Source: Anaerobacillus isosaccharinicus (GTDB taxonomy: Bacteria; Bacillota; Bacilli; Bacillales; Anaerobacillaceae). Taken from it: 64,000 nucleotides of DNA. The translations under genes and the position numbers were made by a program. Every line of letters begins with the position of its first letter. Within the stretch, counting starts at the first letter, position 1. The notes below the pieces were generated by a model. The model searched no databases and was not told where the DNA came from. It saw only the letters and a program-made list of their open reading frames with translations. This document shows, one piece after another, positions 52,697-63,202 of the stretch. The stretch is taken from contig NZ_CP063356.1 in assembly GCF_001866075.3 (NCBI RefSeq), forward strand, positions 1,850,164 to 1,914,163, written 5' to 3'.

Positions 52697-52793
52697 TTGT
52701 GCTCCTGCGGTACTCCTTGCGTCGTATCCTCGTCGCAAAGCTGCAAGAAGTAAATCATGAAGCATCTCACGATGTAATTGAGGTCAGTAGCTT
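52697..52793. repeat. rrn-spacer repeat, copy in the 23S-5S spacer of operon 1
   Basis: About 97 bp, TTGTGCTCCTGCGGTACTCC to GGTCAGTAGCTT, directly before the 5S gene. Near-identical copies at 59313-59411 and 62723-62819, diverged ones at 63111-63202, 63003-63110 and 52969-53056. Confidence 0.85.
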
Positions 52794-52794
52794 G

Positions 52795-52910
52795 TCTAGT
52801 GGCGATAGCGAAGAGGTCACACTCGTTCCCATGCCGAACACGATCGTTAAGCTCTTCAGCGCCGATGGTAGTTGGGGGTTTCCCCCTGTGAGAGTAGGAC
52901 GTTGCTAGGC
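52795..52910 (+). rRNA. rrf: 5S ribosomal RNA, operon 1
   Basis: 116 nt. Terminal helix CTAGTGGCG/CGTTGCTAG pairs fully. GAAGAGGTCACACTCGTTCC and GTTAAGCTCTTCAGCGCCGA are conserved. In helix III the usual CCG/CGG is TCG/CGA, a compensated change. Confidence 0.95.
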
Positions 52911-52911
52911 G

Positions 52912-52944
52912 AAAAAAGCACACCAATTATGGTGTGCTTTTTTT
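52912..52944 (+). terminator. Terminator of rRNA operon 1
   Basis: AAAAAAGCACACCA-ATTA-TGGTGTGCTTTTTTT. Confidence 0.93.
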
Positions 52945-53383
52945 GTGTGTCTTGAAGTCTAAAAAATTGTGCATCTGAGTCTTCTATAGTAAAGCTTCGT
53001 AGCGTAACTCATCGATGTAGCAACATGAAGAAATTCAGTGAAGTAATTAATGATGGTACAAATAAGCAATTACCAAAAATAACGTATGAAATTTCGAGAA
53101 GTAGGTCGTTTTTTTTTGTTAAAATTAAAGGGTAATCACATATCAATTACACCTCTATTCAATGGGTGTGAAATATATTCTATCTATGTGATTTATGGTC
53201 GATTTAAATGTAAATCTTTGTGTCAATTACCATTTGGATATTTATGTTAAAAAAATATTCAGTTTGTGAAAAGTACACTTAAAGTAACGAAGTAGAATAA
53301 TTCAAGAAAGGATTAATGCTTTTATATGGAATTTATTTACAAACATACTGAAAGTTGAAGTATAGTAATCGGAGGTAAAAATT
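52945..53383. other. Gene-free stretch after rRNA operon 1
   Basis: About 440 bp. A diverged rrn-spacer repeat (GTGCATCTGAGTCTTC to GTAATTAATGATG, 52969-53056) comes first, then AT-rich sequence in which I see no gene. The words GATTAATGCTTTTATATGGA and ATTTATTTACAAAC near 53310-53344 recur in similar form at about 56778-56819. Confidence 0.6.
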
Positions 53384-53635
53384 ATGTTTATTTTGTATGC
53401 TGCTCTAACTTTTATTATATTAGTTTATGTTATCGCTCCTTTCTTGAATTTGATTAATATGTCTCAAGATTTCTTCGCTATATGGGTTATTCCATCAATA
53501 ATTATAGGTTTATTAATAAGCATAAACCAAAAATTATCAGTGTTAATATCTAAAGATAAAGAAAATACAAAAGACCCAATTTTAACTGATGAAGAAATTG
53601 AAAAAGAGTTAGAAAATATTTACGATGAAAAATAG
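53384..53635 (+). CDS. Hypothetical small membrane protein (83 aa)
   Basis: Two predicted membrane helices (about 3-22 and 30-48) followed by a charged tail rich in Lys, Asp and Glu (DPILTDEEIEKELENIYDEK). A good ribosome site (GGAGG, 8-nt spacing) supports the gene. No family recognised. It lies alone in the AT-rich stretch between the rRNA operons. Confidence 0.65.
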   Translation: MFILYAALTFIILVYVIAPFLNLINMSQDFFAIWVIPSIIIGLLISINQKLSVLISKDKENTKDPILTDEEIEKELENIYDEK

Positions 53636-53708
53636 ATACATTAGGCACTACAGTGGCGTTAGCTTAATAAAGGTTATGCGCTGTTCTGTTAAAAAGGAGA
53701 ATACTTAT

Positions 53709-54013
53709 TAAAAAGCGTGAAATTTTTGCTAATTATCCAATTAGCAAATTAAAACTTGCCAAAAAAACATTATTATTTTCCCTTATACTTTTAATTTCAC
53801 TGGGGTTGTTGTTCAGTTATATGAATCACTTGAAGTTGTTTTCCTATGGGACCCTGTTTTTGCCATAATATTTATTGTTGGTTGTAGTTCAATCGATTTA
53901 GAAAGGTTAAAGGAAACAAGCGTGCGGACCATATCGGGAAAATAACTAAAATAGATAATGAAGGAAATAGGATTTTGGTTAGTGAACTAATCACGAAGAA
54001 CAATGAATGGTAG
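53709..54013 (+). pseudogene. Decayed membrane/lipoprotein gene fragments
   Basis: Three open pieces in different frames follow an AAAAGGAG ribosome site. 53709-53869 reads REIFANYPISKLKLAKKTLL and a hydrophobic helix, with ATT where a start codon should be. 53847 onward in another frame reads FAIIFIVGCSSIDLERLKET, which looks like a lipobox followed by a mature lipoprotein start. From 53912 a third frame reads NKRADHIGKITKIDNEGNRI up to a stop at 54013, resembling small exported proteins of the DUF3221 kind. At least one frameshift and a lost start make a working product unlikely. Confidence 0.55.
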
Positions 54014-62624: not shown

Positions 62625-62722
62625 TATAAATAAGATTGAATTCTTACTCAAGTCTTAAATGTGTGTTATCTAGTTTTCAGGGAATGATCCTTGAACTTAA
62701 TATTTACTGCTCAATTTAGTGG

Positions 62723-62819
62723 TTGTGCTCCTGCGGTACTCCTTGCGTCGTATCCTCGTCGCAAAGCTGCAAGAAGTAAATCATGAAGCATCTCACGATG
62801 TAATTGAGGTCAGTAGCTT
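62723..62819. repeat. rrn-spacer repeat, copy in the 23S-5S spacer of operon 2
   Basis: Identical to the copy at 52697-52793 as far as compared. Confidence 0.85.
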
Positions 62820-62820
62820 G

Positions 62821-62936
62821 TCTAGTGGCGATAGCGAAGAGGTCACACTCGTTCCCATGCCGAACACGATCGTTAAGCTCTTCAGCGCCGATGGTAGTTG
62901 GGGGTTTCCCCCTGTGAGAGTAGGACGTTGCTAGGC
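62821..62936 (+). rRNA. rrf: 5S ribosomal RNA, operon 2
   Basis: 116 nt, same as operon 1 copy, including the compensated TCG/CGA pair change in helix III. Confidence 0.95.
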
Positions 62937-62941
62937 ACAAC

Positions 62942-62972
62942 AAAAACACACCAATTATGGTGTGTTTTTTTA
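62942..62972 (+). terminator. Terminator of rRNA operon 2
   Basis: AAAAACACACCA-ATTA-TGGTGTGTTTTTT, similar to operon 1 but with the first stem pair changed. Confidence 0.92.
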
Positions 62973-63002
62973 TTTTGACTCTACTCTTGGGCAAATGGTT
63001 TC

Positions 63003-63202
63003 TGTGCATCTGCGTCTTCTAGTAAAGCTTCGAAGCTAGGTTCCTCGATGCAAAGCAACACGAAGGAATTCATTGAAGTAATTCATGAAGTGAATGAAAT
63101 CAGTTGCTTTCCTGCGGTACTCCTAGGGTCGTATCCTCGTCGCAAAGCAGCACGAAGAAATTTCAATGAAGTAACTCATGATGTGAACGAGGTCAGTAGC
63201 TT
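63003..63202. repeat. Two diverged rrn-spacer repeats in tandem
   Basis: 63003-63110 (GTGCATCTGCGTCTTCTAGT to CAGTTGCTTT) resembles 52969-53056. 63111-63202 (CCTGCGGTACTCCTAGGGTC to GGTCAGTAGCTT) resembles the 23S-5S spacer copies with substitutions. Confidence 0.75.

Follow-up and report, generated by a model that had tools for sequence, protein, structure and literature searches.

The stretch under study comprises 64,000 nucleotides (nt) of the Anaerobacillus isosaccharinicus genome (contig NZ_CP063356.1, positions 1,850,164 to 1,914,163; the whole of it is termed the window) and contains two ribosomal RNA (rrn) operons, in whose spacers and flanks a short repeat recurs. Across its family the repeat measures about 80-105 bp, and it is found in rrn spacers as well as in larger intergenic repeats, of which it forms a module. 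The whole 64-kb window was searched, with matches retained up to E 1, using R2, a structure-plus-sequence model of the repeat, which yielded five strong copies with model extents of 52698-52794, 59314-59412, 62724-62820, 63003-63110 and 63111-63203. Unit length in the window ranges from 93 to 104 nt, the start being GCTCC or GCATC and the end GCTT (AGCTT in three spacer copies). The copies reported by a first-pass annotation of this DNA proved real, with R2 agreeing to within a few bases at the well-kept ones, and its statement that the 45 kb of protein genes hold no copy was borne out by the lack of any R2 match of E ≤ 1 in the first 46.9 kb.

Both 23S-5S spacers carry a plus-strand unit that adjoins the 5S gene, at 52701-52793 in operon 1 and at 62727-62819 in operon 2; the two copies are identical and score 86.3 bits each. 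Another plus-strand unit lies in the 16S-23S spacer of operon 2 (59317-59411, 96.7 bits), where it ends just 5' of a boxA-like GTTCCTTGAAAACT, "boxA-like" being a label that we take from general knowledge of rrn leaders and not from a tool. The genome has the same copy in 3 of its 11 operons. Operon 1 has no unit in its 16S-23S spacer, which measures 458 nt versus 602 nt in operon 2. Downstream of the 5S gene of operon 2, a unit of a long-loop subtype (63006-63109, plus strand, 102.9 bits), whose predicted fold consists of two adjacent hairpins, is abutted by a second unit that has lost its first bases (63110-63202, plus strand, 70.1 bits). The latter runs straight into the final 27 nt of a 5S gene (63203-63229) and then a copy of the 5S terminator (together 63203-63264, plus strand), as shown by a match to 5S positions 90-116 and by two stretches, of 37 nt and 29 nt, that repeat 62910-62946 and 62942-62970 exactly. 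This junction of unit, 5S end and second terminator at 63110-63264, a rearranged duplication, is a recombination scar, and scars of the same kind were found in other operons of this genome.

There are also less well preserved members. A degraded long-loop unit on the plus strand follows operon 1 at 52968-53053 (33 bits, E 6.5e-7 for 52968-53070) and shows 80.7% identity over 88 columns to the copy at 63003-63110. In the leader of operon 1, upstream of a boxA-like GTTCTTTGAAAACTG, the plus-strand segment 47497-47553 is probably the truncated 5' half of a short-form unit; by eye it resembles the first ~35 nt of that form, and it has a relative in one other leader of the genome (82.8% over 58 nt), while failing E 1 in the window search with R2. 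A weak antisense partial copy lies between tRNA-Arg and tRNA-Pro (46997-47064, minus strand, 19 bits, E 0.003), and two more antisense matches (E 0.41) overlap the 23S-5S copies. The tRNA-cluster copy and the fusion with a 5S end had escaped the first-pass annotation.

The genome is a single contig of 5,227,144 bases with 11 rrn operons, 11 copies of 16S and 12 of 5S; one operon (locus L076, G000:C1:1656500-1665000) has two full-length tandem 5S genes, at 6435-6550 and 6665-6780. A BLAST search with the unit gave 22 matches, all within nine rrn regions, of which 21 had E ≤ 2.4e-7 and the weakest (E 2.3e-4) was partial and antisense; matches in this number and at these E-values rule out chance as the source of the repeat. 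The model search of the genome, in which 150 of 1925 first-look candidates were scored, so that weak dispersed copies are undercounted, found 27 copies scoring 40 bits or higher, every one of them in an rrn region. Eleven of them follow a 5S gene at a distance of up to about 2.2 kb, 10 occupy 23S-5S spacers and 4 occupy 16S-23S spacers, and the other 2 lie in leaders. The 23S-5S unit is present in 10 of the 11 operons, the sole exception being the operon at 646-652 kb. Weaker matches, mostly to the first 75 positions, are scattered elsewhere. Among 13 such sites inspected, 12 are 5' halves within larger repeats, nine having a GTCTAGCTCC...GCGCTTTTCTT-type backbone and three lying between TTCAAAAAG and CTTTTT ends; the site at 3554341 fits neither type. 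Weak partial copies were also detected in three tRNA clusters, all antisense. The preference for rrn loci proposed in the first-pass annotation holds for the strong copies of this genome, while partial 5' halves are scattered within larger repeats and the preference does not extend to the family.

Within the operons the spacers look modular. Directly 5' of the boxA-like TTCCTTGAAAACT in the 16S-23S spacer, the 11 operons show the unit in 3, a 3' remnant in 1, another module (GGAGTGTAC...GTACATGAGGA) in 5 and neither in 2, as judged by eye. At the leader site directly 5' of TTCTTTGAAAACTG, likewise assessed by eye in all 11 operons, there are full or nearly full units in 3, 5' fragments in 2, 3' remnants in 2 and no insert in 4. 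A second module of ~105 nt (CGGAGTGTACAT...GTACATGAGGA) was observed in the window at 49543-49652 and 59569-59678; all 11 operons have it 5' of 23S, with 78.6-100% identity to the copy in the window. In 5 operons it occupies the repeat's own 16S-23S site (79.6-84.7%), and there is related sequence, by eye, in the spacers of Bacillaceae sp. IKA-2.

Comparison between operons and between species points to gain, loss and exchange as the source of the presence and absence differences at matched positions, which the first-pass annotation had read as insertion or loss. In genome G056, three inspected 16S-23S spacers without the unit read ...CTCTCAATGGGATCTTTGAAAACTAG, and one further spacer, which begins in the same way, has 116 nt more, with the unit between CTCTCAA and GATCTTTG; the unit lies at that distance from 16S in five operons of this genome, and the long-loop type is found in a sixth. 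Three complete 16S-23S spacers of IKA-2 have no unit by eye. When four of the ten 23S-5S copies of A. isosaccharinicus were compared with its 16S-23S copy, three were 96-97% identical and one 86%, the latter type being found in 2 of the 10 operons. In the tree, the long-loop group (support 100/99) takes in the 23S-5S copies of G001, G003 and G004 and leaves out those of A. isosaccharinicus, and a single lineage for all seven 23S-5S copies is rejected with p-AU 1.7e-9, in a tree of which 17 of the 28 inner branches are weak. The subtype at a given spacer position differs between species. A further locus of IKA-2 (L265, G002:C1:4371000-4372000) reads 16S, then a unit-like remnant (by eye), then 5S, with no 23S match between them, an arrangement that recombination between spacer units would be expected to yield.

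Across 397 genomes of the order, with 10 candidates scored in each and strict filters, matches of E ≤ 1e-8 were patchy, in 23 genomes and 13 of 135 genera. Eleven genomes in five families (G003, G004, G005, G056, G121, G128, G167, G171, G172, G344 and G368) carry the unit in the 16S-23S spacer, 3' of 16S and on the rRNA strand, the rRNA around it being broken in the drafts G004 and G005. In other genomes, for example G027, G095 and G264, the best matches had no rRNA in the fetched stretch. Model searches of single genomes scored 150 candidates each, which undercounts weak dispersed copies, and G004 gave at least 151 matches. A scan of named species genomes with a 22-base core returned 41 stretches, 16 from A. 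arseniciselenatis, 14 from Siminovitchia, four each from an Anaerobacillus metagenome genome and Bacillus sp. HF117_J1_D, and one each from B. norwichensis, Lederbergia citrea and a Clostridia genome, the last looking like chance; rRNA was present in just 2 of the 41.

The dispersed copies are best seen in A. arseniciselenatis (G005) and its congener G003, each with dozens of them, many built as modules into larger palindromic repeats. Inspection by eye often placed the unit of A. arseniciselenatis inside such a repeat. Just before position 7208 of the A. arseniciselenatis locus L104, several tandem 33-nt strings that include the initial ~25 nt of the short-form unit precede a full unit. Alignment of 20 stretches of G003 revealed a terminator-like backbone with two module sites, which are filled in some stretches; the first site is empty in L225-L229 and the second filled by another module in L232-L234 and L236. 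Dispersed terminator-like repeats with exchangeable internal modules and the backbone GTCTAGCTCCAGCGCC...GGGCGCTTGCGCTTTTCTT were noted both in G003 (L219-L238, with a strong one-strand bias) and in A. isosaccharinicus (L176-L188). At the level of the family, therefore, the expectation of a repeat confined to rrn loci fails, the unit being scattered away from rRNA in A. arseniciselenatis and G003.

Direct comparison of the arms between copies, in line with the covariation check proposed in the first-pass annotation, indicates that the repeat can form two abutting predicted hairpins whose arms covary. In hairpin 1 the arms GCNNC/GNNGC enclose a loop whose length varies. The fully paired states are GCATC/GATGC, GCCTC/GAGGC, GCGTC/GACGC, GCGCC/GGCGC and GCGCT/AGCGC; the majority arms, GCTCC/GTCGC with two central mismatches, occur in 67 of 119 distinct copies. 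The arms of hairpin 2 are AARRCNRC/GYNGYYTT, in the states AAAGC/GCTTT, AAGGC/GCCTT and AAAAC/GTTTT-like, together with CTGC/GYAG or CAAC/GTTG. Three alignments were built: A1, with 48 copies aligned out of 49 non-redundant ones (60 of 70 copies passed the anchor filter); A2, made with MAFFT from 43 of 53 non-redundant long forms, short forms being excluded; and A3, with 121 distinct copies fitted to R2, from a search that covered 98 loci. In A3, changes on both sides were observed in 9 of 13 pairs and 57 cells, values that none of 500 shuffles reached, and sliding the partners left at most 4 pairs and 11 cells. In A2, such changes affected 5 of 13 pairs, a number that 4 of 500 shuffles reached, and 12 cells, a number that none of the 500 reached; 58 of 500 shuffles matched A2 in further pair types and 17 in the score, and slid partners gave 0-1 pairs. 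Compensatory changes thus accompany the two hairpins in both alignments. Three other pairings were tested. An inner stem in the 3' half has 3 covarying pairs, a number reached by 115 of 500 shuffles and exceeded on a +1 slide, while its paired and changed cells were reached by just 3 and 5 of 500; a stem TGCG/CGCA, considered as an alternative, pairs in 97.5% of cells with zero covariation; and an end-to-end stem gave nothing beyond shuffles. In single-sequence predictions, both hairpins appear in 63003-63110; in the 23S-5S copies hairpin 2 appears too, preceded by another first hairpin.

Orientation was counted over 148 distinct copies of at least 40 bits, rrn-linked copies being those within 1.5 kb of an rRNA match. 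The rrn-linked copies number 72, and all 72 lie in the rRNA orientation; they are not independent observations, because operons exchange sequence. The other 76 have no rRNA within 1.5 kb in the fetched stretch. A rule of sense orientation without exception is at odds with the weak antisense partials in three tRNA clusters. Of 45 dispersed copies, 41 (25 of 28 in A. arseniciselenatis, 16 of 17 in G003) are in leading-strand sense according to local GC skew on 20-kb stretches picked because they contained copies. Since rrn operons run co-directionally with replication, the orientation in rrn loci may be one case of a general strand asymmetry; alternatively, the rrn orientation and the dispersed strand bias may both follow transcription.

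No Rfam 15 family covers the unit in the part of the window, the eight rrn regions of this genome and the three relatives' spacers that were scanned. Bacillaceae-1 RNA can sit near rRNA operons, and it resembles the repeat in being structured and in its Bacillaceae-type setting. The two differ in that the RF01690 model finds no match here, neither in the genome at E ≤ 1 (150 of 395 candidates scored) nor in 52600-53200 at E ≤ 10. RF01690 is listed as a structured RNA motif of Bacillaceae in PMC2864571. The nearest published kind, likened by description and not by sequence, is the set of short, multicopy, stem-loop intergenic families of Bacillus (PMC2267715), for example Bant-1, bcr1 and Bhal-1, the last being similar in size with its 74 bp and present in 36 copies in B. 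halodurans. That study also discarded 11 cluster groups, including one of B. halodurans, because they lay in rRNA precursors, so that the location seen here was there a ground for exclusion. Repetitive extragenic palindromic (REP) elements of the GTAG and CGTC super-families are small hairpin repeats, often clustered, and to that extent alike; as defined in PMC3733652, they are palindromes of 20-40 bp with an unpaired GTAG or CGTC tag at one end, and identity with them was rejected given two abutting hairpins over 80-105 bp, a GTAG inside an arm and no unpaired end tag. No description of the repeat was found in a literature search judged by titles and the starts of abstracts, most subscription papers lying outside it.

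With miniature inverted-repeat transposable elements (MITEs) the repeat shares shortness, non-coding nature (coding origin being judged by inspection), insertion polymorphism and dispersal, units of 80-105 bp being dispersed in A. arseniciselenatis and others. It differs from them in lacking supported terminal inverted repeats and, probably, a constant target-site duplication. The candidate termini, 5' GCTCCTG and 3' CAGTAGC, pair at 6 of 7 positions in the consensus by eye, show covariation not beyond shuffles, and include, among the five pairs tested, one that is unpaired in 47 of 48 copies. The plasmid and phage collections gave no match to the 16S-23S copy of operon 2. As to the surroundings in the window, a 13-bp inverted repeat (CAGGCTGTTGAGA) lies directly downstream of operon 2 at 63267-63295, and an open frame from 63519, also downstream of that operon, encodes a transposase domain (PF05598 DUF772, E 1e-27). 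A protein-level scan of the genome contigs with an open reading frame of the window found no relative.

Overall, we favour, with a probability of roughly 0.6, a non-coding, hairpin-forming dispersed repeat of Bacillales that persists and is reshuffled in rrn spacers. The dispersed copies of sister species argue for a small spreading repeat rather than ordinary spacer, and the observed facts suit such a repeat better than they would a processing signal that is required or a spacer that is ancestral. The repeat would enter rrn spacers as an insertion, recombination between rrn copies would then spread and homogenise it among operons, and it would decay by deletion. It may be tolerated between the rRNA processing stalks as a self-folding unit that leaves the neighbouring boxA-like and 5S sequences intact, and its rRNA-sense orientation may stem from the strand asymmetry also seen in the dispersed copies.

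Several observations weigh against this interpretation. As regards insertion, a constant, clean target-site duplication was not seen; TTG often occurs on both flanks by eye, in sequence of low complexity, and one leader of A. isosaccharinicus has ATTG on both sides of the unit when compared by eye with an empty operon. The filled and empty pair of G056 shows no duplication, and its insert carries ~25 nt of extra left sequence. A mobilising enzyme was not found, there being no Y1 transposase match in the copy-rich A. arseniciselenatis, an 80% complete draft. Among 30 stretches around Y1 genes a single match had E < 0.01; it is partial, covers positions 1-72 (26 bits, E 4.4e-7) and lies some 400 nt from a stop-containing Y1 frame in G003. 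As regards strand bias, it may mirror gene orientation, the upstream gene being co-directional in 19 of 27 cases in A. arseniciselenatis and 15 of 17 in G003; on the 8-kb core-scan loci the figure was 15 of 28. These orientations rest on crude open-frame calls, and 4 dispersed copies fall inside an open frame of at least 90 codons. As regards structure, the arms were spotted by eye and then tested, and A3 leans to the model. Of the 121 copies, 83 do not pair at the two middle positions of hairpin 1, and 63 do not pair at one position of hairpin 2. RNAalifold gave 2 and 6 pairs on A1 and A2 and did not recover the structure, in our opinion because MAFFT misaligns the variable-length loop of hairpin 1. 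Of six copies folded against shuffles, only the 16S-23S copy of operon 2 was unusually stable (z -4.05), the other five ranging from -1.9 to +0.6.

A bolder variant, which we hold tentatively and put at appreciably less than an even chance, regards the repeat as a selfish structured element resident in rrn operons. Spacers would be its main refuge, where it sits just upstream of boxA or 5S in the orientation of transcription; it would spread by rrn recombination, erupt genome-wide in some species, and exact a cost in rearrangements such as the 16S-5S locus of IKA-2 without 23S.

Less probable, and in our view unlikely, is a functional pre-rRNA module kept by selection, whose hairpins would serve maturation (through RNase III or Mini-III, or of 5S) or a boxA-proximal antitermination signal. 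A role in maturation or antitermination is possible on sequence grounds, since copies end directly 5' of boxA-like sequences (in leader and spacer) and of 5S and the structure is conserved. The arm covariation, the uniform orientation of the 72 non-independent rrn-linked copies and the recurrence of the 16S-23S location in five families also agree with it, and the two predicted hairpins add a structure to the RNA processing module suggested in the first-pass annotation. However, the unit is missing from 1 of 11 23S-5S spacers and most 16S-23S spacers of A. isosaccharinicus and, by eye, from the three complete ones of IKA-2, leaders contain truncated copies and empty sites, and only 23 of the 397 genomes of the order show the repeat under strict filters with 10 candidates scored per genome. 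Most dispersed copies have no rRNA nearby, and the partial copies in the three tRNA clusters are antisense.

More doubtful still is a non-autonomous element of the single-strand IS200/IS605 or REP/RAYT-like kind, in which a Y1 transposase would recognise hairpins on the lagging strand and insert strand-specifically without duplication. Mobilisation by a tyrosine transposase is proposed for GTAG-kind REPs in PMC3733652. Such an origin would agree with the strand bias of dispersed and rrn copies, with the hairpin-forming ends and with the Y1 transposases in 8 of the 9 genomes searched; yet none was detected in the 80% complete A. arseniciselenatis draft, the 30 Y1 loci have no full unit beside them and a single partial match, and we set the IS200/IS605-type assignment aside on these counts. 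Moreover, the carrier repeats of G003 are oriented as wholes, so that part of the strand bias belongs to the carrier. An ordinary ancestral rrn spacer lost in some operons is very improbable: the repeat does occupy most 23S-5S spacers of this genome and 16S-23S spacers of related families, but one of the 11 23S-5S spacers here and, by eye, the three complete 16S-23S spacers of IKA-2 lack it, the 23S-5S copies do not form one lineage (on a tree with mostly weak inner branches), subtypes at the same position differ between species, and dispersed copies exist.

The spacers of rRNA operons are usually regarded as neutral filler or as processing signals. A hairpin-forming repeat that is found in leader, 16S-23S, 23S-5S and post-5S sites and is dispersed over the chromosome in relatives is well suited to the study of how selfish or structured repeats survive in loci with the highest transcription. 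Such repeats may drive the exchange and loss of rRNA genes, and spacer typing in these genera may be measuring repeat turnover. It also adds a structured element of several Bacillales genera that the Rfam 15 scans made here did not recognise.

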